In this document: piece by piece, positions 17,989 to 29,922 of the stretch
Numbering within the stretch: the first letter of the stretch is position 1
Layout: every line of letters starts with the position of its first letter
IMG/VR virus record: IMGVR_UViG_3300035698_000464
Span: 1-35,774 of that record
Length of the DNA: 35,774 bases
Origin: a virus
Direction: 5' to 3' (one strand)
Position numbers and translations under genes: made by a program
The notes under the pieces: model-generated
The model's input: the letters and a program-made list of their open reading frames with translations, nothing else
Databases searched by the model: none
What the model was told of the DNA's origin: nothing

Positions 17989-18852
17989 TTAGTCTATTCG
18001 TTTCAACTCATCAGCAAATCTTCCTGTATACTGATGCTCTCCTACATGACTTATATAATCCTTAATATATGCGTGACATTTACCGCCTAAAGCTCTCCAT
18101 CTCATACAGAAAGCAAAGTCTTCGCCATGATACGTATGCGTCTCTGGATCAAAATGAGTATCAAAAAAATTATAAACATTAGGAGTTTCAACAGACTTAC
18201 CATTAATTACCGTGTGTTGTTTAATCTTCATATGTGGATATTGTTTAACCATTTTTTCAATAACTGATTTCTTAATAAGCATACACCCAGTAGGAGAATG
18301 AGTTACTTCCATAACACCGTCCACAACTGTAATATCTTCTATATTTTCTAATTTAAGAGGATAGTTATTCATAGACATACTTAAATCTGTTTTATTTTTA
18401 ATAGACCCTTCATTTAATTTATGCATCCCTTTATCCCAATCAAAGCTTTTTAATGGGTAGGGTATTGATATAATATCCTTATCTTTTTCAAGCATATTAT
18501 AAATAGAGTAAGATTCAAAATCTATATCCGAATCGATAAATAACATATGTGTAGCTTCTTTATTATTTAAAAATGCAGCTGTGCATAAATTTCTACCCTG
18601 AGTTACTAAAGATGATTTAATTAAATGAAACATTACTTTTATGTTTTGATAAAAACAAAACTTTTGAAACTCTAATAAGGATTGAGCATAATGAATAGAT
18701 ACATCACTATGAACTGGAGTACATACCACAATACTATATTTAGGTTTTTCTATTGGTGATTCTTTTGTTTCATCTTTCCATATAGGTTTAACAGTTTCAT
18801 TAAAGTCAATGTTTTGACTTATTTTTTTATGCTTAAGTCTTTGGTCGTGCAT
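17989..18852 (-). CDS. GT-A fold glycosyltransferase
   Basis: A 287-residue enzyme. A Rossmann-like start (YSIVVCTPVHSD, 39-50) leads to a DxD metal-binding motif, FIDSDID (Asp107 and Asp109), for nucleotide-sugar binding. SPTGCMLIKKSV and HGEDFAFCMRWRALGGKC follow, the latter containing the acidic catalytic segment seen in processive GT2/Anp1-like families. It lacks transmembrane helices, so it is cytosolic. It is paired with a GT4-like gene upstream (20-base overlap, GAGGAG before the ATG). It likely transfers a sugar to a virion protein or cell-surface precursor; the acceptor is not identifiable. Confidence 0.8.
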   Translation of the reverse strand: MHDQRLKHKKISQNIDFNETVKPIWKDETKESPIEKPKYSIVVCTPVHSDVSIHYAQSLLEFQKFCFYQNIKVMFHLIKSSLVTQGRNLCTAAFLNNKEATHMLFIDSDIDFESYSIYNMLEKDKDIISIPYPLKSFDWDKGMHKLNEGSIKNKTDLSMSMNNYPLKLENIEDITVVDGVMEVTHSPTGCMLIKKSVIEKMVKQYPHMKIKQHTVINGKSVETPNVYNFFDTHFDPETHTYHGEDFAFCMRWRALGGKCHAYIKDYISHVGEHQYTGRFADELKRID

Positions 18853-19768
18853 TTAAAGCTCCTCTCAAAAAGTTTTCCCATTCTTTTCCTTTTTTCTCCC
18901 ATGAGTAAAATCTTTTATAGTAATCTACCTGAGTATCTAAATGATCTTGAATATAATCTTCATGGAGATAATCAGCAGCTGTATCTATAGCATGAGCAAA
19001 AGCAATTGCTAAAGCTGTGTAGTCTTTTGTAAAATTTACATATACAGGCCATTCAGCAAAAGTTTCAAAAAGAGCACCATAGTTTGTAACAATTCCATGT
19101 AGTCCTGCAGCAGCAGTTTCTACTACACCTATGCAAAAAGTTTCTTCCCATATACTTGGATAAACCCACATTTGATAATCCGTCATATGATCTAAAAGAT
19201 ATTGATTAGGCTTGTATCCAATATAATTAACGTTAGGTAATTTTCTAGCTTGTTCATATAAAGGAAGATAAACATCATCATTTCTTTCTTTAAAACTATC
19301 TCCATAAATTTGAGTACTACTATAAACATCTAAAGTTATATTAGGATTTTTAACATATTGCATTGCAGCTAACATTACATTTAAACCTCTCCATGGAGTA
19401 GAGTGATGTAATAATTTTATAGGATCACCTTTTTTATATTTTTTTCTAGTGGGAAAATTATCAGTTGCATTTTTAATAACCATGCATTTGTTTTGTGGTA
19501 CCTCAAACATCATTCTAAATTTTTCATAGTTCCAATGACTATTAAAAACATACCAGTCGTATTCATCATGACGTTCTTTGTTATTAAAAAACTCTTGAAG
19601 GTTAGGTTGATCCCAAGAATTTTTTTGCCAAAGAATATTTAATTTAGTTGGGTGTAAAGGAACTTTACCAGGAATAGAAGTACATATCTGTACTTGATCT
19701 AATAGTTCTTTGGAGCAGTGTTTTTCTAATAATGCAAATTGTAATTCAGTTCCGCCCTGTGGTTCCAT
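18833..19768 (-). CDS. GT-B fold glycosyltransferase, family 4-like
   Basis: A 311-residue enzyme with an N-terminal Gly loop (PQGGTELQ, 3-10), a domain junction with LLHHSTPWRGLNVMLAAMQ, and the EX7E motif of retaining GT4 enzymes: EETFCIGVVE, Glu209 and Glu217. It is slightly short for GT4 (often 350-400), mainly in the N-terminal domain. It is coupled to a GT-A enzyme by a 20-base overlap and to the upstream small gene by TAATG. Two enzymes of different fold side by side suggest a short two-sugar modification. Confidence 0.8.
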   Translation of the reverse strand: MEPQGGTELQFALLEKHCSKELLDQVQICTSIPGKVPLHPTKLNILWQKNSWDQPNLQEFFNNKERHDEYDWYVFNSHWNYEKFRMMFEVPQNKCMVIKNATDNFPTRKKYKKGDPIKLLHHSTPWRGLNVMLAAMQYVKNPNITLDVYSSTQIYGDSFKERNDDVYLPLYEQARKLPNVNYIGYKPNQYLLDHMTDYQMWVYPSIWEETFCIGVVETAAAGLHGIVTNYGALFETFAEWPVYVNFTKDYTALAIAFAHAIDTAADYLHEDYIQDHLDTQVDYYKRFYSWEKKGKEWENFLRGALNARPKT

Positions 19769-20435: not shown

Positions 20436-20592
20436 TAAACCACGCAAACCTTTCTGTGTCTTGTTTTATTTCTTCTTGATAAGAAGTGTTTAGCTTATCT
20501 TTAAGAGTTTGTAAAGATTGTGCTACTTGTCTTTGATTGTCTTCAGTATAAACTGGTGTCGGTTCAGGAATTATAATATCTACTCTTGCCAT
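20428..20592 (-). CDS. Small 54-residue hypothetical protein
   Basis: A short frame starting MARVDIIIPEPTPVYTEDNQ and continuing as a helical segment (RQVAQSLQTLKDKLNTSYQE) ending RFAWFNG. It links the tail nozzle-like gene and the 109-residue gene by overlaps on both sides (TAATG at its start, ATGGCTAA at its end), leaving no gap, which supports expression. Helical Gln/Leu periodicity suggests oligomerisation. No family assigned. Confidence 0.6.
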   Translation of the reverse strand: MARVDIIIPEPTPVYTEDNQRQVAQSLQTLKDKLNTSYQEEIKQDTERFAWFNG

Positions 20593-22742
20593 TATCTCAT
20601 TCCATCAGGTTGCACATCAGCTCTAAAAGTTCCATATCTCCAATTTTGGTCTGTAGAAGTATTAGCAACTTTAATACTTGCAAATCTTGATCTTGCTCTA
20701 GTGTCTACTTTATCAGTTGTGCTATTTACTATAAAAGGTCCGAGAGGCGAGGATGTTGCAGTATCAGATGGAAATTTTCTAAGGTTAATAGTTATTTCCG
20801 CATCTCCAGTGATTAATTTAAAATCAGGAATAAATCTTCTAACACTCATAAAAAATTGACCATCTCCTCCTTCGGCTAAATCAAAATCTCCAGATTGAAT
20901 AAAAGCTGGTATAGCTGTTTTTGCTCCAGTAGAATCTACTTCGTTATTACCAACTTCATGAGCATAATAAGTTGATGCTCCGTTTGCATTTGTCACTCCT
21001 TGAATAGTAGGGAATGTTGGTGTACCAGACGCACCATATTCAGTTGCATATGGATTGTCATATAGTGTTGCATCAAACCAAGTAGTCCTTGAAAGTGATC
21101 CAGTTGTCCAAGTTTGTTCTGTGTAATTATAAGTAACAACTCTGTCAATTAAAGATGAACCAGATTTGGGATAGAACCAACTTATTTCTTCATAAAGATG
21201 ATTTAGTCCTACATAAATTTGTTCTCCATTAGCGTAACTCAAACCTAGATTGTCTCCTTTATTTGTAAATACAAAATCTTCAACTAAACATGGTATTGAT
21301 TTAACTGTACCATCGTATACAAAAAATCCTCCAGCTTGACCCATCCACCAAACAGCTCCATTTACATATTTAATAGAGTGTTGACCAATAGCTCCACAAT
21401 TACTTCCAACTTGTCTTATTGAAAATGTAAATGGAGGACCAACAAACTGCATTACATAAGCTGATGTGTCAGTTAAAATTAAAATATAATCTTTACCTCT
21501 TACAGCTCCTACTATTTTTGTACCTGACTCTATTCTAAATGTACCAGCAGTATTAACTGAGGTCGGAGCATAATCAGATATATCTTCTTGATCCGAAAAT
21601 CTTATAAACATTTTATCTTGAGTATTTGAAGTTCCAATTGTAGTTTCTGTTCCAAGTATAACTAAATGTCTATCCCTTTCAGAAACAATAGACATAACAG
21701 ATTTAGTTGGTGCTCCACTAACAACAGTTGCTCGTGTGGTTAATGCAGCAGCGGAATTACTTATAGTATCCCACTCAAATGTTTGACCATCTTTTATTGT
21801 TGCAATTAATTTTGATCCAAAATGATCTAAAGACCATGATGCAGATTCTAAAGTTACTCCACCAGTCAATGATGAAGTTCCCCATCCAAGATAAGCTTCA
21901 ACAGAAGCTCCACTCGCATGGGCTGATCTAGTGCCTGCTACAGCTCTAGTAATTCCAGTTAAATCATTTGTAGAAATTCCAGTGTATGAAATAAACTCTG
22001 CTCCAACTTTTATAGTTCCAGATGTTGGAAAACCAACAACGGAAGATAATGTAATTGAGGTTCCTGAACCACCAGTACCAGCAGTGTCATCTTGTAGTAA
22101 ACCATTTAAAGTTGAGATAACTCCTGCAGACCCACCCCATCCAGAAGTACCATAACCAAAACCAGCAGTTTGATTTAATGGTCCCACTTTAACATAAGGA
22201 TTTATTGTTGCTGCTCCACTTGCTGCAACAGTTGTACCAGCATTAGCCGCCATAGTAATTGTGAATGTATCTTGACTCGGCACTGTCACAATCTCAAAAG
22301 TATTTGTTGTAAAATCTGCAGCTAAGTAACCAGCTCCCACTGGAGGCGTAACAGAGGTAAATCTAATCAAAGCACCTGCTAATAAACCATGAGCAATTTT
22401 ATTTACAGTTACAGTTGGACTAGTGTTGGCTGTTGTAAATGTTGCTCCAGTAATTGCAGTGTCTAATGGTGTGATATCGTAGAATGCATTTTCATAATAA
22501 ATTATTAAAGCCTTATTAGTACCTATAGCTGAGTATCTTCTACCATCTAAATCAGCCCAAACAAGTTGATCTCTTGCTGCACCAACTAGTGTATTTGAAG
22601 TTATTTGTTGCCAACCCCCTATTTTTTCTGGCAGACCATATCTAAACCTAACAAAATCACCATCAGTCCACTGACCTTCTGCTCCAGTTTCTGTGACTTG
22701 CTTATTAAATCCCGGTCTAATCTGTACGTTTGTTAAAGGCAT
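20592..22742 (-). CDS. Tail nozzle / tubular protein (P22 gp10-like)
   Basis: A 716-residue beta-rich structural protein. The N-terminus (MPLTNVQIRPGFNKQVTETG, then WTDGDFVRFRYGLPEKIGGW) is the start I recall for tail nozzle or packaged-DNA-stabilisation proteins of marine podoviruses. The central region is Thr/Gly-rich, with an insertion carrying GTSITLSSVVGFPTSGTIKV. The C-terminal half has propeller-like WMGQAGGFFVYDGTVKSIPC. It likely seals the portal channel below the gp4-like adaptors. It starts with ATG and ends in TAATG. Assignment to the exact T7 or P22 counterpart is by analogy. Confidence 0.7.
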   Translation of the reverse strand: MPLTNVQIRPGFNKQVTETGAEGQWTDGDFVRFRYGLPEKIGGWQQITSNTLVGAARDQLVWADLDGRRYSAIGTNKALIIYYENAFYDITPLDTAITGATFTTANTSPTVTVNKIAHGLLAGALIRFTSVTPPVGAGYLAADFTTNTFEIVTVPSQDTFTITMAANAGTTVAASGAATINPYVKVGPLNQTAGFGYGTSGWGGSAGVISTLNGLLQDDTAGTGGSGTSITLSSVVGFPTSGTIKVGAEFISYTGISTNDLTGITRAVAGTRSAHASGASVEAYLGWGTSSLTGGVTLESASWSLDHFGSKLIATIKDGQTFEWDTISNSAAALTTRATVVSGAPTKSVMSIVSERDRHLVILGTETTIGTSNTQDKMFIRFSDQEDISDYAPTSVNTAGTFRIESGTKIVGAVRGKDYILILTDTSAYVMQFVGPPFTFSIRQVGSNCGAIGQHSIKYVNGAVWWMGQAGGFFVYDGTVKSIPCLVEDFVFTNKGDNLGLSYANGEQIYVGLNHLYEEISWFYPKSGSSLIDRVVTYNYTEQTWTTGSLSRTTWFDATLYDNPYATEYGASGTPTFPTIQGVTNANGASTYYAHEVGNNEVDSTGAKTAIPAFIQSGDFDLAEGGDGQFFMSVRRFIPDFKLITGDAEITINLRKFPSDTATSSPLGPFIVNSTTDKVDTRARSRFASIKVANTSTDQNWRYGTFRADVQPDGMR

Positions 22743-22800: not shown

Positions 22801-23469
22801 TTACCTTCTAAACCAATTTGGTAATCCTAAATGAGGACGTTTGTCAAACATATTATCCTTAGATCCTGGAGTTTTTCTGTTGTTATAGTGAAGAAATACT
22901 TGAATACATTCTTTACCTTTAAATTTTTCTCTCCAATGCTCTAGTTCACAACCTGAATAAACTAACATATCGCCTGGTTTTAAATCTATTTTAATACCTT
23001 TTGCTTTGCTAGAGGAAGTAATTCCTTTTTTACCACCTTCTGTTTCAGGTAAACCAACATTTTCGTTTGGACTTAAATATATAGGCCAATCATCCCCACC
23101 TAAATTCATTGTAGTTGATATCTCACAACTAAATCTATCTTTATGTCTTTTTAATTCGTCTTCCTTTTTATATATTCTAGCATATGTATAAGATGGATAT
23201 AATTTAAGACCTGTTACTTTTTCCATTTTTGGTAGACATTTTAACATTAAAGTCTCCATAGCAATATTAGCATATTGAGCATATGTATTTGGTATTTGAC
23301 CACTAGGTTCTTCATATTGACCTATAATATATTCAAATGGAGATATGTATCTAGCATCCTTACAAGTATCATAAACTTGTTTTTGCATAATAAAATAATT
23401 TGCAATAAATGAAGCTAAATCTTTTGATATTGCTTGACGAATGACTGTATATTTTTTTTTTTTAAACAT
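22801..23469 (-). CDS. 2OG-Fe(II) oxygenase 1
   Basis: A 222-residue protein from the ATG at 23469 (the frame is open to 23535, but this ATG overlaps the upstream stop by 8 bases, the local coupling pattern). The double-stranded beta-helix core has the HxD iron motif in LKRHKDRFSCEIS (His109, Asp111) and the distal His178 in CELEHWREKF, preceded by DLKPGDMLVYSG. The expected 2-oxoglutarate-binding Arg is unclear (Arg180 or a following Lys). Such enzymes hydroxylate protein or small substrates using 2-oxoglutarate and O2. Twelve A residues follow the second codon, giving KKKK. It is the last gene of the cassette. Confidence 0.75.
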   Translation of the reverse strand: MFKKKKYTVIRQAISKDLASFIANYFIMQKQVYDTCKDARYISPFEYIIGQYEEPSGQIPNTYAQYANIAMETLMLKCLPKMEKVTGLKLYPSYTYARIYKKEDELKRHKDRFSCEISTTMNLGGDDWPIYLSPNENVGLPETEGGKKGITSSSKAKGIKIDLKPGDMLVYSGCELEHWREKFKGKECIQVFLHYNNRKTPGSKDNMFDKRPHLGLPNWFRR

Positions 23470-24094
23470 CTTTTGCCATCTCTTTCGGTACAGCTTGTAG
23501 GTTCCAATGTATAAATCTAAAAGGTTCTTTACCAAAATCTACTGTAAACTCGTGTTCTAAAAACCCTGGAAATATAACTAGTGTTCCAGGTTTAGGTCTA
23601 ACATAAATTAATTCTGCTGCCGGTAATACACCTTTTATATTTGTTTTCATTTTTAATTTTGTAGCTCTAGCTCCAGTACGTGGCTCGTGAAATACTGGCA
23701 TTGATGTTTTATCACTTGCTTTTAAAAAATAAAATCCTGAAACATGTTGATTCCAATGAACGTGAGCTGAATGATTTCCTCCTCCTTCTTTAGCAAACTC
23801 TTGTACCCACATTTCACTAAATAAAGTTGTGTATTGTGACATATCAAAACCTTGATGATCTAAATACTCCCAAGATTTTTGACCAATGTAATCTCTAAAA
23901 TCTCTAAAATTATTGTCAGCTGTTAATGGTGTTGAATGATATGACGTTCCAAAATCACCATGTTCTTTAATAAATTTTTTTTGTTTATTTTTTGAATCTT
24001 TAATATATTTGTTAGAAGCCCTATTTAAAGATTTTATAAACTCTGGTTTTTGTTCAGACCAAATAGTTGTGCTAAAGTAATTATTTATATACAT
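23462..24094 (-). CDS. 2OG-Fe(II) oxygenase 2 (TIGR02466-like)
   Basis: A 210-residue protein starting at ATG 24094, one base after the previous stop; the longer frame opens with TTG. The core has HSAHVHWNQHVSGFYFLK (His111/His113), FHEPR, KPGTLVIFPGFLEHEF (His181) and PFRFIHWNLQ with Arg193 for 2-oxoglutarate. This H-x-H...SG-YYL...FP...H pattern fits the TIGR02466 group of putative 2OG oxygenases, which is frequent in marine viruses and bacteria with unknown substrates. The sequence differs widely from its neighbours, so the cassette is not a recent duplication. Confidence 0.75.
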   Translation of the reverse strand: MYINNYFSTTIWSEQKPEFIKSLNRASNKYIKDSKNKQKKFIKEHGDFGTSYHSTPLTADNNFRDFRDYIGQKSWEYLDHQGFDMSQYTTLFSEMWVQEFAKEGGGNHSAHVHWNQHVSGFYFLKASDKTSMPVFHEPRTGARATKLKMKTNIKGVLPAAELIYVRPKPGTLVIFPGFLEHEFTVDFGKEPFRFIHWNLQAVPKEMAKDV

Positions 24095-24095
24095 C

Positions 24096-24725
24096 TTATT
24101 TAAATGGGTATCCAAGGTTCCACATCACCAATGAATATCTAGTTCCTTTTGTTACGGGTTTAACTCTATGCCATACAAATGATGGAAATACAATGATACT
24201 TCCTTTAGGTAATATCTCTTTTGCTTTTCTCAAATGTTTAGCTTCTTCTCTCATATGGGGATCATAGTTTCTAAAGTCAAACTCTAATTCACCACCTTCA
24301 TATTCTGAACTATCTGTTAACTGACAAGTCATAGATAGTTTTCGAATTTTACCATTTTCTGGACCTTCTTTTTCATAAGGTTTTTCAAAAGAATCACAAT
24401 GCCAATCATAATATTGGTTGTGTTTGTATTTTGTAAATTGACATGACTCTGATCTATCCCATTCAAAATTCCAACCTGCTGATTTATTAGCTTGATGTAT
24501 ATAAGGATGTAATTCTTTATATATCCATGGGTCATTTAACCAAACTAAATCTGATCTTCTTTTTTTCTGCATATTTTTAATTTGGTCTTTAGTTAATTCT
24601 TTATCACCATATCCACCCGTTCTAGCCATAGTTTCTGATTTTGATAATCCATATTTTATAATGTCATCACATACTTTAGGAGGTATTGCAGAAGTAAAGT
24701 ACCAGTAATAATTAGATATATTCAT
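24096..24725 (-). CDS. 2OG-Fe(II) oxygenase 3 (prolyl 4-hydroxylase-like)
   Basis: A 209-residue protein with a textbook P4H-type active site: YYDWHCDSF (His109, Asp111), RKLSMTCQLTDSSEYEGGEL, then GSIIVFPSFVWHRVKPV (His186) and TRYSLVMW (Arg196 for the 2-oxoglutarate carboxylate). Closest in pattern to PKHD/P4H hydroxylases. All four key residues are present, so it is probably active on a peptidyl or free amino-acid substrate. It overlaps the preceding gene as ATGA. Confidence 0.85.
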   Translation of the reverse strand: MNISNYYWYFTSAIPPKVCDDIIKYGLSKSETMARTGGYGDKELTKDQIKNMQKKRRSDLVWLNDPWIYKELHPYIHQANKSAGWNFEWDRSESCQFTKYKHNQYYDWHCDSFEKPYEKEGPENGKIRKLSMTCQLTDSSEYEGGELEFDFRNYDPHMREEAKHLRKAKEILPKGSIIVFPSFVWHRVKPVTKGTRYSLVMWNLGYPFK

Positions 24726-25267
24726 TTTGAAAAAGTCATGTTTAAAGAAAATCTATAGGCAGGAGCTGTAGAAGTACAAGGTCTGATCAAATGAGGAATA
24801 GTGGCATCAAAAATAACTACTCTATTTGGCTTACACTGAACAGTTTTAATTATATCTTCTTTGTTGTTATTTAAAAATAAAGTGTCTGCACCCCACTCTA
24901 AATCCCATTTCATATTAGCATAATAAATAAAACTCCATTTAGCATTATCAAGAGAATCATCATGAGGATGATATACACCCGCTGAAGTAACAGCATTTAT
25001 TAAACATCGGTTAAGATTATTTAAATTCATTTTAAATTTATTTTTAATGTTAATAGGTAGATGTTCTATTGCACCTAACTTAATTAAATCTTCTTTTGTA
25101 AATATAGCTCCAAACATATCAAAACTTTTATAATCAAAAGATTCACTATCATTTAAATTTAACTTAAAATATGAATTAAGTATAAAAGAATAAAATTTTT
25201 GAGTTACGTGCGATGGATATACATTATCAAAAATATATATTTTATTTAAATTATTAGATATAGTCAT
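24722..25267 (-). CDS. 2OG-Fe(II) oxygenase 4 (P4H-like)
   Basis: A 181-residue protein: GVYHPHDDSLD (His102, Asp104), WSFIYYANMKWDLEWGADTL (the WGGeT-type strand), PNRVVIFDATIPHLIRP (His159) and YRFSLNMTF (Arg172). This is the P4Hc layout of eukaryote-like hydroxylases of about 200 residues. Catalytic residues are intact. The coding sequence is very AT-rich, with many Asn/Lys/Ile codons. It overlaps both neighbours (14 bases upstream, ATGA downstream). Confidence 0.8.
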   Translation of the reverse strand: MTISNNLNKIYIFDNVYPSHVTQKFYSFILNSYFKLNLNDSESFDYKSFDMFGAIFTKEDLIKLGAIEHLPINIKNKFKMNLNNLNRCLINAVTSAGVYHPHDDSLDNAKWSFIYYANMKWDLEWGADTLFLNNNKEDIIKTVQCKPNRVVIFDATIPHLIRPCTSTAPAYRFSLNMTFSK

Positions 25268-25757
25268 AAGTTATTGTTTGCACAAAATTTAAACTATCTT
25301 TCTGATTATTAGTTATATAATACATATTAGTTGAGGGAAACATTATAAACATATTATTTTTAAGTTCTATATCCCAACTTCTTCCCTTACGTCTATTATC
25401 ATCATAATGTATTCTAACATTACAGTCTTTGACTTTTACACCATATAATAATGTAAAATCTGGAGAGTTACGTAAATCCACGGGATCAATATTTAATAAA
25501 GGAATTGTAGTCTCATTAGGTTTATAGTTATTTCCCCATGTGTTTTTATTAATTAACTTATAATTATGTTCAACATTAATATGATCTCTTACATAACTAT
25601 TTAACATATCCCAAGTTCTTGAAAACGGAAAATCTTTTTTTTGAATCACTGATTTTAAAATATCTTCTACTAATTTATCTCGGTCAATGTCCCAATCTTT
25701 AGGCATTGCTATATCTCCATAATATAATGCTTGTTCTGATAAAGTTTTTTTAATCAT
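25254..25757 (-). CDS. DSBH-fold protein, probably inactive oxygenase relative
   Basis: A 167-residue protein from the ATG at 25757, which overlaps the upstream stop as ATGA; the frame opens with TTG at 25769. The C-terminal half has NVRIHYDDNRRKGRSWDIEL (a candidate first iron motif at His117), NNMFIMFPSTNMYYITN and SLNFVQTITYDYI. In real oxygenases the FPS segment is followed by His and then Arg; here the equivalents are Tyr and Asn. I recall close relatives in T4-like cyanophages (SPDFTLLYGVKVKDC block). It may be a non-catalytic partner or use another cofactor. Confidence 0.6.
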   Translation of the reverse strand: MIKKTLSEQALYYGDIAMPKDWDIDRDKLVEDILKSVIQKKDFPFSRTWDMLNSYVRDHINVEHNYKLINKNTWGNNYKPNETTIPLLNIDPVDLRNSPDFTLLYGVKVKDCNVRIHYDDNRRKGRSWDIELKNNMFIMFPSTNMYYITNNQKDSLNFVQTITYDYI

Positions 25758-26269
25758 TCTGTTATCCAATCTATTATTAAATGCACTCTATTAGATTTAC
25801 TATTATTTGCAACTGAGTGTATTTTTTTTGAGTTATTTATTTCCCACATTTCGCCTTTTTTTAAATTTATTTTTTCTTCACCCACATTAAAAATTACTTT
25901 ATTATTTGTAATTATAGGAATATGGATTCTTTTACATATATCTAATGAAAATGAATTATCAATATGATTAGGTATATTTTTTTGAGCTTCTAAATTTACC
26001 AGTAGTGCTCTTATAATATATCCTTTACCAAATTTTTTAGAAAATATATTCTTAAACTTATTCATTTCATTTTTATATATACTATAATTAAAATGATAAG
26101 TAGGATTATGGTTTCTAAAATCTTCATCAAATATCAATGGTATTGTTTTGGTATATTTATGTACATCATATGTTTTTTGTCTAAATATATAATCATCCCA
26201 GGTTTTAATTTTTTTAACTTTAGAAGCTACAGCTGAGACATCTGTTTTACCAATATAATTAAAATTCAT
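25754..26269 (-). CDS. Aspartyl/asparaginyl beta-hydroxylase-like oxygenase
   Basis: A 171-residue protein with the Asp_Arg_Hydrox pattern: NIPNHIDNSF (His102, Asp104), KRIHIPIITNNKVIFNVG (Arg114), KKGEMWEINNSKKIHSVAN (His151) and NRVHLIIDW (Arg161, His163). Relatives hydroxylate Asp/Asn side chains or free amino acids with 2-oxoglutarate. It differs in subfamily from the P4H-like genes beside it. It starts in an ATGA overlap with the gene upstream, and its own stop overlaps the next gene as ATGA. Confidence 0.8.
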   Translation of the reverse strand: MNFNYIGKTDVSAVASKVKKIKTWDDYIFRQKTYDVHKYTKTIPLIFDEDFRNHNPTYHFNYSIYKNEMNKFKNIFSKKFGKGYIIRALLVNLEAQKNIPNHIDNSFSLDICKRIHIPIITNNKVIFNVGEEKINLKKGEMWEINNSKKIHSVANNSKSNRVHLIIDWITE

Positions 26270-26772
26270 AATTTAAAAATACTTTCTACTGATTCATTAC
26301 ATCTTAATTCTAAATTTAATGCAATTCTTGGTTTTGTTTTTGAGACATCTGGTAAATGATCTAAAAAAGATGGGAAAATTAACATATCATTATCTTTTGG
26401 CATTAAATATTTTTGTTCATTTTTATAGTGAAAAGTAATTCCTTTCTTCTGTGTCTTTAAATATAATACACAATTAATACTTGCGGTTAACTTATGGTTA
26501 TGACATTTGCTTTTGTTATATTCTTTATCAGTAATATAAGCCCATGTTTTAAAATTCACATCTTTTAAAGAAAAAATATTTAAATTAATTTTAGATATAT
26601 TATAAAATATATTGTACAAATAGTTAGTATACCTAGAATGTAATTCAAAATTGTAAGAATTTTTTTCATTTAAATCTATTCTTTGATTTAAACATTCTTT
26701 TATTAATGGCTCTTTAATATTTTTTAAATGTTTTTCTATATTGAAACTGTATATTAATTTTTCTAACATCAT
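26266..26772 (-). CDS. 2OG-Fe(II) oxygenase-like protein
   Basis: A 168-residue protein, very rich in Asn, Lys and Ile. The core shows KCHNHKLTASINCVLYLK (His91, His93), GITFHYKNEQ, DNDMLIFPSFLDHLPDV (His139) and KPRIALNLELR (Arg149), similar in layout to the TIGR02466-like gene at 23462. An H-x-H variant replaces HxD, so metal binding is likely but activity is less certain. Its ATG lies two bases after the sulfotransferase stop. Confidence 0.65.
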   Translation of the reverse strand: MMLEKLIYSFNIEKHLKNIKEPLIKECLNQRIDLNEKNSYNFELHSRYTNYLYNIFYNISKINLNIFSLKDVNFKTWAYITDKEYNKSKCHNHKLTASINCVLYLKTQKKGITFHYKNEQKYLMPKDNDMLIFPSFLDHLPDVSKTKPRIALNLELRCNESVESIFKL

Positions 26773-26774
26773 TT

Positions 26775-27575
26775 TTATTCTTTAATAAAATTTTTATATT
26801 TTTCAATTATATAATTAGGAATTTTAATTTGATTGTATATTGTTTTTTTAAGTGCTCCTGTTTTTAAAGTATGCATAGGAGCTTTTAAAATAGTATCATC
26901 ATACTTAATATTATTTATTGAAAATTGTTCTGTAATATTAAAACAATGTTTAAATTTTGGTATTTTTAAAAAGCTATAAATTTTATTTATATTATTTTCA
27001 GGGTTTTTTATTAAATTATTATAATCAATAAAAAGTACATCTTCGTTGTTTTTTATAAAATTATATGCCATACAAGAAAAATCAAATAAACTATTTTTTT
27101 TAGTAATCAATTCTATTTTTTCTTCTATTTCACTTCTATGTAATGCAGTTTTGTCCATTTGATTATATTCCAAGTTAATATAAAAATCTGGATAATTATT
27201 ACATAAATTTAAATAAGAAGTTATTATTTCCACAGGGTTTCTTACAAGAAAAATTAATTTAATTTCATTAGGACAATATTGTTTTAACATATTATAATTA
27301 AAAGGAGTAGCCCACTCTCCTCTATTTATTATATATTTTTGTTTCCATTTTTTATAAAAATTAAAAAGTACATTTTTTTGTATTTCTTTTAAACTATCTT
27401 TTGTTGGAAAGTAATTATACTTATCATCGTATTTAATTGTCTCTAAATTAAAAAATATTTGAGTAGCATAAGAATGCCCAGAAGTTGCAATGTCTTTATT
27501 TTGGTTTAAAATTGTAGATAATAAAGTATTTCCAGATCTTGGAAAACCAGTCAAAAAATAATACTTTTGTTGCAT
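26775..27575 (-). CDS. PAPS-dependent sulfotransferase
   Basis: A 266-residue enzyme with the two PAPS-binding signatures: the 5'-phosphosulfate loop TGFPRSGNTLLSTIL (residues 9-23) and the 3'-phosphate motif LVRNPVEIITSYL (110-122, Arg112 and Ser120). It moves sulfate from PAPS to a hydroxyl group on sugar, peptide or small molecule; the host must supply PAPS. No membrane anchor is seen. It is the first gene of the hydroxylase cassette, with a candidate promoter upstream, and its composition is extremely AT-rich. The acceptor could be a glycan or a hydroxylated residue; this is open. Confidence 0.85.
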   Translation of the reverse strand: MQQKYYFLTGFPRSGNTLLSTILNQNKDIATSGHSYATQIFFNLETIKYDDKYNYFPTKDSLKEIQKNVLFNFYKKWKQKYIINRGEWATPFNYNMLKQYCPNEIKLIFLVRNPVEIITSYLNLCNNYPDFYINLEYNQMDKTALHRSEIEEKIELITKKNSLFDFSCMAYNFIKNNEDVLFIDYNNLIKNPENNINKIYSFLKIPKFKHCFNITEQFSINNIKYDDTILKAPMHTLKTGALKKTIYNQIKIPNYIIEKYKNFIKE

Positions 27576-27617: not shown

Positions 27618-27651
27618 AGTATACTTTAATTTATGCTAATTGATCTGTCAA
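27618..27651 (-). promoter_or_regulatory. Candidate promoter for oxygenase/sulfotransferase cassette
   Basis: On the minus strand a perfect -35 TTGACA (27646-27651, inside the end of the upstream gene) is followed after 17 bases by TAAAGT (27623-27628, 4/6 match to a -10). A TATACT lies just downstream at 27618-27623. The 55-base gap between 27575 and 27631 has no gene. A sigma70-type promoter here would drive the cassette separately from the tail fibre. AT-rich DNA makes chance matches common. Confidence 0.35.
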
Positions 27652-28080
27652 ATCCCAAGTTGTATTAGCTTCATTCCAGGCATAATACCAATGATTAGTA
27701 TGTGCTGTATTTTGTGATTCTTGTCCAGCAGTTAATGCTGGTGCATCACCGATTGGTGATTTCCAAGAAGCTGATGCATTATGTTTTACCCAAGATGCAT
27801 AAGGTTTTTTAGGCCAAAAGATTTGATCATCTTCGTCCCAAGTAAAACCTATACCTGCATAATTTCCTCTTAATGGAGTTCCACCTAATTTGTGTTGATT
27901 GCCAGATGTATTGTAGGAAGTTTGAATCCACATTTGTGCTGGCCAATTACCATACTGTTGTAATTTTTGTTGACCTACTGTTTCATCTTCAATGCCATCA
28001 GCGTTTAACATATCATTATTATTTAAAACTACCACTTGGATAACTTTATTACTAGAACCTATTTTTGCAAAATGTGCCAT
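27631..28080 (-). CDS. Marine-phage tail-fibre-associated protein (MAHFAKI family)
   Basis: A 149-residue protein starting MAHFAKIGSSNKVIQVVVLN. It matches a pattern I recall as widespread in cyanophages and other marine phages: MAHFA-I...V..V.VV-N, then KQTSYN or similar, RGNYAGIGFTWDEDDQIFWP, KPYASW and a Trp-rich end (WDLTDQLA). These genes commonly sit next to tail fibres and may help fibre assembly or attach to it; no function is proven. It lies just after the tail-fibre gene. Confidence 0.75.
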   Translation of the reverse strand: MAHFAKIGSSNKVIQVVVLNNNDMLNADGIEDETVGQQKLQQYGNWPAQMWIQTSYNTSGNQHKLGGTPLRGNYAGIGFTWDEDDQIFWPKKPYASWVKHNASASWKSPIGDAPALTAGQESQNTAHTNHWYYAWNEANTTWDLTDQLA

Positions 28081-28089
28081 AATTTTTAC

Positions 28090-29922
28090 CTAATTTTGAA
28101 ATTTATACCTTATAATTACTATACCTGAACCACCTGCTCCACTATTAGGAGAAGATGGTGATTGTCCACCTCCACCTCCGCCAGTATTTGCAGTTCCAGC
28201 TTCAGCTGTACTAGGACTTCCACCATTTCCGCCTCCGCCTAATCCACCTGCTCCGCCAACTCCAGGAGCTGGTGCAGCACCACCGCCACCTCCACCTGAA
28301 AAATATTGAAAACCTCCAGAAGCTTCTCCAGAAGGTCCAAAAACAACAGAAGGTACTCCAGCTCCAACTCCACCAAATCCACCAGGCCCTGTTGGCATTG
28401 GGGGTTGTGCAGCTTGTCCAGCAGCTAATGCTCCGCCACCACCACCTGCTGCGTAAGTAGGTCCAGGAGAAGCTCCACCAGCATTTCCTTGAGGAGGACT
28501 AACAGGAGGTGTATTACCAGCTCCACCAGCTCCACCTCTATGTTGTTTTCCACCACCAGATCCGCCAGCTACTCCGCCAGAGCCACCTCCAGCAGATGTT
28601 AGTGTTCTAAAAACTGTATCCGCTCCACTTGTTTGTCCAGGTGTTCCTGCTCCACCAGCACCTATAACGACAGGGTAAGTATTAATCGCAGCCGGTAAAG
28701 CTGAACAAGCATTTAAAGGTAATGCTGGAGCTCCTGGTTGATCTGCAGCAAGAGCTGAATATCTAAATCCACCTGCACCACCGCCACCACCAGCTATACT
28801 TGAGTTACCTCCGCCACCGCCAGCTGATACTAAATAATCTATTGTATTTGAACCTAATGCACTTCCCTCACAAGTTATTGCAAAATCTCCTGATGCTATA
28901 AATTTTGCTATTTTATAATCTCCACAACTTGAAGTAGTTAAAGTATTACCACATCCTGTAACTGTAGCTACAACATATTGTATAGCTCCTGAAATTTCAC
29001 TTGAATCATCTTGAGTTGCAATCCAACCTTTTGTTCCATCCACGTAAACAAAAACTACAGATTGTCCAGCAGTAGTTAAAGTTGGGTTAACTGAGTTTCC
29101 ACCATTTATAGGACTTGAATTTCTATCAATTGTTAGTGCATTAGAACTAAATGTTTGTGCATAATCTTTTACCGCTACAAAATCTCCTGCTGAAGGACCA
29201 GATGGTAAAGTTAGATTAAAAACTCCACCTGCCGTATTACAAAAATAACCTTCACCTGATACTGCAGTAAAAGTTGCAGTCTTTGGAGTTGTAACCCATG
29301 ATGTTCCACCACTACTAGCATCAGCAAAAGTTGGAGGTGCACCTGCACCTGCTGAAGTTAAAATTTGTCCTGCAGTACCTGTTGCTACTGCAACTGGATT
29401 ACCACTTGCATCATAAGAAATTACATTTCCATCTGTACCTGGGGCCATTTTTGCTAATGTCACAGCGTCATCTGCAATTTGTGCAGTTCCAATAGTACCA
29501 CCTAATGTGTCTAATGATATTTCATTTAAATTTGTTCCGTCAGAATATGCCGCATAAATTTTAGCAGCATCTAAAGCAAAACCAGTTCCAGAAGCTGTTT
29601 TAATTGTAAGGTTTGTAGGATTAGTTAATCCAGTTGCATCAAAAATATAAAATTTTTCTATACTATCTGGAATAGTACAAATTGTACTAGCAGCAATTGA
29701 TGCTGTTGCAAATTTGATTACCATATTTCTTGCGTTAGAAATAGTTTTATCAGTCATTGCTAAAGCTAAAGTTCCACCACTTGAAAGTGTTACTTGCTCA
29801 AAACCAGAAATAGCTTGTTGAATTAAGTTTAAGTTATTATTTGTATTATCTCCCCATGTACCAGCGTTTGCGCCAGTAACCATAAGCTCAAGTTTTAAAT
29901 CTGTTGAGTAACTAGATGTCAT
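28090..29922 (-). CDS. Tail fibre with glycine-rich adhesin-like tip
   Basis: A 610-residue protein. The N-terminal part (YSTDLKLELMVTGANAGTWG, NTNNNLNLIQQAISGFEQVT) is a tail-fibre/baseplate attachment start typical of marine phages. The middle has repeat-like beta segments and a GTAQIADDAVTLAKMAPGTD motif common in fibre shafts. Residues about 366-599 are Gly-rich (GGGGG blocks), interrupted by Pro-containing loops (QPGAPALPLN; PPVSPPQGNAGGASPGP; QPPMPTGPGGFGG), ending GGSGIVIIRYKFQN. This resembles the polyglycine-helix sandwich of the T4-like phage S16 gp38 receptor-binding tip. It is the likely host-recognition protein. AGGAG precedes the start. Confidence 0.8.
   Translation of the reverse strand: MTSSYSTDLKLELMVTGANAGTWGDNTNNNLNLIQQAISGFEQVTLSSGGTLALAMTDKTISNARNMVIKFATASIAASTICTIPDSIEKFYIFDATGLTNPTNLTIKTASGTGFALDAAKIYAAYSDGTNLNEISLDTLGGTIGTAQIADDAVTLAKMAPGTDGNVISYDASGNPVAVATGTAGQILTSAGAGAPPTFADASSGGTSWVTTPKTATFTAVSGEGYFCNTAGGVFNLTLPSGPSAGDFVAVKDYAQTFSSNALTIDRNSSPINGGNSVNPTLTTAGQSVVFVYVDGTKGWIATQDDSSEISGAIQYVVATVTGCGNTLTTSSCGDYKIAKFIASGDFAITCEGSALGSNTIDYLVSAGGGGGNSSIAGGGGGAGGFRYSALAADQPGAPALPLNACSALPAAINTYPVVIGAGGAGTPGQTSGADTVFRTLTSAGGGSGGVAGGSGGGKQHRGGAGGAGNTPPVSPPQGNAGGASPGPTYAAGGGGGALAAGQAAQPPMPTGPGGFGGVGAGVPSVVFGPSGEASGGFQYFSGGGGGGAAPAPGVGGAGGLGGGGNGGSPSTAEAGTANTGGGGGGQSPSSPNSGAGGSGIVIIRYKFQN

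Follow-up and report, generated by a model that had tools for sequence, protein, structure and literature searches.

An ordered cassette of 2-oxoglutarate oxygenase-type genes and a sulfotransferase gene in the tail-fibre locus of an HTVC023P-type phage, a possible system for tailoring a virion protein

Genes of the 2-oxoglutarate (2OG)/Fe(II)-dependent oxygenase type in marine phages have been interpreted in several ways. Sullivan 2010 proposed 2OG/nitrogen and DNA-repair roles for them (PMC3037559), a view repeated in PMC9146016, and Wittmers 2022 described, for the phage lineage studied here, eight 2OG genes that are non-orthologous and "frequently nearby ... (although not adjacent)", with "ferrochelatases" as partners (PMC9599517). 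Here we analyse a cassette of eight packed leftward open reading frames (ORFs), in the order ST, g7, g6, g5, g4, g3, g2, g1, at positions 22801-27575 of the IMG/VR virus record IMGVR_UViG_3300035698_000464 (35,774 bases, hereafter the window, in whose whole-stretch numbering all gene positions are given). ST is a predicted sulfotransferase gene and six of the others are predicted 2OG oxygenase genes. The cassette lies on the minus strand, flanked by a Gly-rich tail-fibre-like gene and a small gene, up, on one side and by a structural gene, stab, on the other. A preliminary description of the window had placed this run of genes inside the tail genes; all eight genes are present there as an ordered block not due to chance, and their location between tail-fibre-like and structural genes holds as well. 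New with respect to the earlier work are the adjacency and fixed order of the 2OG genes, the reassignment of a "ferrochelatase", and the proposal of a modular cassette linked to tail fibres.

The structural genes of the window are closest to those of HTVC023P-type SAR11 podoviruses. HTVC023P (gp63-gp67) and 023Pt_psg01 have the same core, up-g5-g3-g2-g1, in the same place of the tail locus with 71-83% identity (73% between gp65 of HTVC023P and g3, 77% between gp66 and g2). To this core the window adds ST, g7, g6, and g4; the site occupied by g4 holds another oxygenase in 023Pt_psg01. In the T4-like cyanophages syn9 (gp41-gp54) and S-RIM44 (gp165-gp157), an oxygenase-type run beside the tail fibres ends in a g1 homologue; in syn9, two halogenases and the run follow the tail-fibre genes, and S-RIM44 is similar. 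Both share phrog_2954 and phrog_7084 and have a halogenase (phrog_2928) in common with HTVC023P-type relatives, the phrog_7084, g1, and halogenase families being common to one pelagiphage cassette type and the cyanophage runs. Unlike the window's cassette, the cyanophage runs are longer, include halogenases and JmjC_2 genes, and lack ST, and most of their genes are only remotely related to those of the window. The length of the run, which had been taken for unprecedented, is therefore not new. The pelagimyovirus-type HTVC008M and Mosig have g1 and g3 homologues in a 2OG run adjoining Gly-rich fibre genes; they differ from the window in lacking ST and in having a halogenase elsewhere nearby, and in HTVC008M the strand of the run is not that of the genes around it. 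The runs of HTVC008M, Mosig, and HTVC033P are shorter than the cyanophage ones. Halogenases related to the flavin halogenase VirX1 of cyanophage Syn10 are inserted in relatives of the cassette, and none is found in the window. In the literature that we found, which covered few subscription journals, no description of a sulfotransferase inside a run of this kind was seen, and the text of the HTVC023P-type survey mentions neither a sulfotransferase nor a halogenase.

The genes g1, g2, g3, g4, g6, and g7 are predicted to encode 2OG/Fe(II) oxygenases with a conserved metal triad, and g2, g3, g4, and g6 pass the Pfam cut-offs of 2OG-Fe(II) oxygenase families. Among the core genes, g3 (24096..24725, minus strand like all those that follow) is of the prolyl 4-hydroxylase (P4H)/PKHD type (PF13640, 5e-17; PiuC-like PDB matches, 2e-5), g2 (23462..24094) matches PF13759 (7e-14) and TIGR02466 (4e-16, slightly below its cut-off), and g1 (22801..23469) matches phrog_2954 (2e-51) and is prolyl-hydroxylase-like according to its predicted structure. 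Three oxygenases are optional: g7 (26266..26772), PF13759/TIGR02466-like, matches phrog_81, a 2OG family (3e-10), and Pfam weakly (0.004); g6 (25754..26269) is Asp/Asn beta-hydroxylase-like (PF05118, 8e-13); and g4 (24722..25267), which sits between g5 and g3, matches PF13640 (8e-9) and the FlmC-like 2OG profile NF052475 of NCBIfam (2e-20). A PDB sequence search with g4 gave nothing usable, and a literature search on FlmC found nothing. These assignments to PF13759, PF13640, PF05118, and a prolyl-hydroxylase-like family agree with the preliminary description, in which the genes were seen as visibly different subfamilies and not as a recent amplification, and six of them as retaining plausible active-site residues.

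The candidate metal ligands are invariant or nearly so. They are of the HxD...H type in g1 (H109/D111/H178, in 46/46 orthologues), g3 (H109/D111/H186, in every orthologue row with letters there), g4 (H102/D104/H159, in the three distinct sequences on which g4 conservation is based), and g6 (H102/D104/H151, 11/11), and of the HxH...H type in g2 (H111/H113/H181, 44/44) and g7 (H91/H93/H139, 12/12). A candidate 2OG-anchoring Arg can be seen in the oxygenase sequences, except at its usual site in g1. The optional ST (26775..27575), which heads the run as previously noted, matches PF00685 (9e-14) and PF13469 (4e-13), and its 5'-phosphosulfate-binding (5'-PSB)-like loop and 3'-phosphate-binding (3'-PB)-like residues R112 and S120 are invariant in 15/15 sequences. 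Profile, loop, and 3'-PB motif thus fit the 3'-phosphoadenosine 5'-phosphosulfate (PAPS) sulfotransferase family. About 18 further contigs have ST in the corresponding place.

The TTG starts given for g1, g2, and g5 in the ORF list were replaced by internal ATGs that agree with the relatives. With ATG starts, ST and g7 are separated by 2 nt and g3 and g2 by 1 nt, and the other junctions overlap, by 4 nt for g7/g6, g6/g5, and g4/g3, by 14 nt for g5/g4, and by 8 nt for g2/g1. In a codon comparison with relatives, the median ratio of nonsynonymous to synonymous substitution rates (dN/dS) is 0.12-0.34 across the eight genes and up, and 0.14-0.20 for the core genes, from which we conclude that all the cassette genes and up are under purifying selection.

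The identity of g1 bears on the published explanations. It has no Pfam match, and its PHROG matches are only to families labelled "ferrochelatase" (phrog_2954, phrog_3531). Its AlphaFold (AF2) model, with a predicted local distance difference test (pLDDT) score of 77, has a prolyl-hydroxylase-like fold, for which the top Foldseek matches are P. putida P4H, PHD2, and algal and viral P4H (probability 1.00, template modelling score about 0.5). A weak profile match to TET-like and plant 2OG enzymes is also observed, and no ferrochelatase profile of Pfam or NCBIfam matched. With prolyl hydroxylases first and 0 ferrochelatases among the 50 best PDB matches listed, a ferrochelatase is ruled out, and we reassign g1, on its structural model, as a predicted oxygenase-fold protein. 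The labels "ferrochelatase" and "DNA endonuclease V" stand, in PHROG and GenBank, on marine phage proteins of the 2OG-oxygenase type (phrog_2954, phrog_3531, and phrog_274; g1 and g4 of the window; inserts in loci L013 and L089, L numbers being our names for loci), and the first label is the base of a published iron-partner inference.

A role of the cassette in auxiliary metabolism, be it 2OG use or sensing in connection with nitrogen status, DNA repair, or iron/haem metabolism with a ferrochelatase, is what the three publications cited above propose, the last through the partnership suggested by Wittmers 2022. We consider it improbable, as the supposed ferrochelatase is itself predicted to have an oxygenase fold, and one enzyme would be enough for a bulk 2OG effect, where we observe six or seven, in varying combination, together with a halogenase, a carbamoyltransferase, or a sulfotransferase. 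Auxiliary metabolism would also leave the position in the tail locus unexplained.

The core protein g5 (25254..25757, minus strand) is strongly conserved (dN/dS 0.17) and beta-rich in its C-terminal half, and has no match in Pfam or PHROG. Its AlphaFold model is of low confidence (pLDDT 45) and gave no significant Foldseek match, and profile comparison with 2OG families reached a probability of at most about 10%. In the best of these alignments, itself of only about 10% probability, an invariant FPS..MYY of g5 faces FPS..MHY of the oxygenases, which places the invariant Tyr146-Tyr147 where the distal His is expected. A metal triad is not found in g5, since this distal His is absent and H117 is not invariant. 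Seven genes with a double-stranded beta-helix had been proposed; six are retained as predicted 2OG oxygenases, by profiles and the g1 model, and for g5 such a fold is not supported by model or profile comparison. The gene is probably an inactive one of oxygenase-like appearance, and may encode a non-catalytic partner.

A search of IMG/VR with g5 matched at least 597 stretches, the best 80 of which were used for gene-order comparison, and a catalogue of inserts was built on about 85 loci; the contigs are redundant (e.g. L222/L224, L283-L288). Wherever a contig among these 80 is long enough, the order up-g5-g3-g2-g1 is repeated, and among the loci fetched with ST a g2 match is absent from L085 and L086. 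Many IMG/VR contigs have the same order as the window, with 67-97% identity. The sub-block ST-g7-g6 occurs in L097-L103 in the window's order, and L093 reads up-ST-g6-g5-g4-g3-g2-x-g1. An assembly chimera, named in the preliminary description as what would overturn its reading, is ruled out by this recurrence of the order in many contigs.

The cassette thus consists of a core of four genes, g5, g3, g2, and g1, and of optional insertions that differ from phage to phage, with additions at the four junctions up/g5, g5/g3, g3/g2, and g2/g1. The inserts comprise further 2OG oxygenases, three Trp halogenases (L020, L023, L104), sulfotransferases, a JmjC/cupin protein, and a NodU-like carbamoyltransferase (L105). 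A core found in most of the close relatives compared, together with freely exchanged additional enzymes, suggests a combinable set for the chemical decoration of a phage protein, the host-binding fibres being the most likely one. Small ParB_N-like genes are also seen between cassette oxygenases (L012:2603-2872, L057, L046, L105:6786-7106). Divergence at fourfold sites is lower in the cassette than in stab, a pattern that fits exchange of the cassette between lineages without proving it. Among 84,980 cellular genomes, g5 has a single match, in the 59.5-kb contig QCMS01000007.1 (L292) of the SAR11 single-cell genome AG-422-I02, where the core is the same. This is probably a phage contig from an infected SAR11 cell, and supports SAR11, an abundant ocean bacterium, as the host.

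Insertions that vary at every junction, with ParB-like small genes among them, would also be expected of a recombination hotspot gathering unrelated accessory genes whose enzymes do not act together. We regard this as very unlikely, given that almost all the inserts belong to one functional class and that most g5 loci, like HTVC023P, keep the core order, with core dN/dS of 0.14-0.20. The same inserts could be read as part of a pathway to a phage natural product, a small molecule or peptide that the cassette would build or decorate: hydroxylases, flavin halogenases, and carbamoyl- and sulfotransferases are typical late tailoring enzymes, and VirX1, whose relatives are among the inserts, reportedly halogenates small molecules in vitro. 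However, neither the window nor its relatives show a scaffold-forming enzyme or an evident peptide precursor, and the only constant small protein, up, is by inspection not precursor-like; a natural product thus seems improbable.

The location of the cassette was assessed in a view anchored on stab, which does not presuppose the cassette, with 42 IMG/VR loci whose sequence extends 6 kb or more upstream of stab (among L132-L291). In 42/42, the interval from the last tail-fibre genes to stab contains oxygenase genes. Of the 27 long-fibre loci, in which the fibre mostly has a Gly-rich C-terminus, 26 have a co-directional cassette after the fibre and one is mixed, and in 15/15 loci with a short fibre and a collar-domain gene the cassette is mainly on the opposite strand (the collar domain, PF07484, was checked on one locus, L146). 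HTVC023P-type phages accordingly show two alternative tail-fibre loci, long-fibre/co-directional or short-fibre plus collar/opposite-strand. The constant location favours, without proving, a virion or tail-fibre substrate. The preliminary statement that the target cannot be read from sequence stands as regards proof, and is narrowed by this comparison.

Poly-Gly-rich fibre ORFs adjoin the cassette in the window, HTVC023P, 023Pt_psg01, HTVC033P, HTVC008M, syn9, and S-RIM44. In eleven T4-like phages, whose gene coordinates were entered by hand, 41 of 131 oxygenase-type genes lie at most 8 kb from poly-Gly fibre clusters, against 14 expected, and 2 of 20,000 rotations gave as high a number, a figure that is not a clean probability because the eleven phages are related. 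A strict equation of Gly-rich fibre and substrate, which we first favoured, was weakened by the many loci having oxygenases without such a fibre: the tail-fibre locus is obligatory, the Gly-rich fibre is not.

In the window, the candidate substrate is the tail-fibre-like protein at 28090..29922 (minus strand; PF21722, 6e-21), whose C-terminal domain is rich in glycine (up to 41% per 100 residues). The last gene after this fibre, up (27631..28080, minus strand, 149 residues; phrog_7759, 4e-31), is the cassette's constant immediate neighbour on this side and precedes g5 in almost every g5 locus; it has homologues in other tail-fibre loci, and no similarity to the small proteins adjoining cyanophage and other pelagiphage cassettes. 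The constant downstream neighbour is stab (20592..22742, minus strand), a virion structural protein (phrog_3287, 6e-86). After stab, two glycosyltransferase-like genes (17989-19768, the one at 18833-19768 being Glycos_transf_1) have matches in HTVC023P and HTVC027P and could glycosylate the target of the cassette. Elsewhere, immediately following the DNA polymerase A gene, a small LAGLIDADG-like ORF (2140-2529; PF00961, 1e-4) is a possible free-standing homing endonuclease.

The main rival explanation is that the host surface (lipid, lipopolysaccharide, or surface protein) is modified during infection, for instance to keep out further phages or to stop progeny from adsorbing again to debris. 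Surface-modifying genes are often near tail fibres in phage genomes, PF05118 takes in lipid hydroxylases, two glycosyltransferase-like genes follow stab, and the opposite-strand cassettes of collar-type loci are separately expressed units. Nevertheless, we find no known signature of a lipid or glycan pathway in the cassette proteins (a search that did not extend to signal peptides or membrane anchors), the closest folds of g1 are those of prolyl hydroxylases, and g3 is PKHD-like; we therefore hold modification of the host surface to be unlikely, if less so than the metabolic and natural-product explanations.

For HTVC023P-type SAR11 phages we favour, at about even odds, a modular tailoring system that sits in the tail-fibre locus and has a virion protein, most likely the fibre, as its target. 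Nearly all inserts being tailoring enzymes, a modular system is the reading they favour. The closest g1 folds in Foldseek are protein prolyl hydroxylases, and JmjC_2 genes, whose known family members are protein hydroxylases, are present in the cyanophage runs. Late in infection, the oxygenases would hydroxylate side chains of the fibre or of another virion protein from the same locus, with 2OG and Fe(II) from the host, and transferases acting after them would cap or further decorate the hydroxylated sites, ST in this phage and a carbamoyltransferase or a halogenase in its relatives, with g5 as a possible non-catalytic partner. Oxygenases and transferases make chemical sense together because hydroxylation provides acceptor oxygens for sulfation or carbamoylation. 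The outcome would be a varied chemistry of the surface in contact with the host, and adsorption or host range might be affected. A multi-step modification pathway, as first suggested, remains the natural reading, not as one fixed pathway but as a core plus phage-variable insertions.

Several points weigh against tailoring of a virion protein. No modified virion protein is known, and no substrate motif was found. HTVC027P-type cassettes are on the opposite strand, and so probably are not co-transcribed with the fibre; that of HTVC027P has no adjoining poly-Gly fibre ORF, and loci of this type keep their oxygenases regardless. Many 2OG genes of large cyanophages are far from tails, and the counts above are not independent, as the IMG/VR loci and the cyanophages are related. 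Sulfotransferases and oxygenases of these families act also on lipids, glycans, and small molecules. Finally, a recombination hotspot, and not function, could explain the linkage to fibres.

More broadly, and more tentatively, we hypothesize that in marine tailed phages swappable tail-locus cassettes of hydroxylases, halogenases, and carbamoyl- and sulfotransferases put varied post-translational chemistry on receptor-binding fibres, diversifying host contact beyond amino-acid change, with g5 as a dedicated pseudoenzyme partner. Phage 2OG genes have so far been explained as metabolic helpers only. If their role is to decorate virion proteins, this would move a large group of puzzling "auxiliary metabolic genes" of marine phages to another category and correct the "ferrochelatase" annotation, and the question would arise whether the fibres of ocean phages are hydroxylated, halogenated, carbamoylated, or sulfated.

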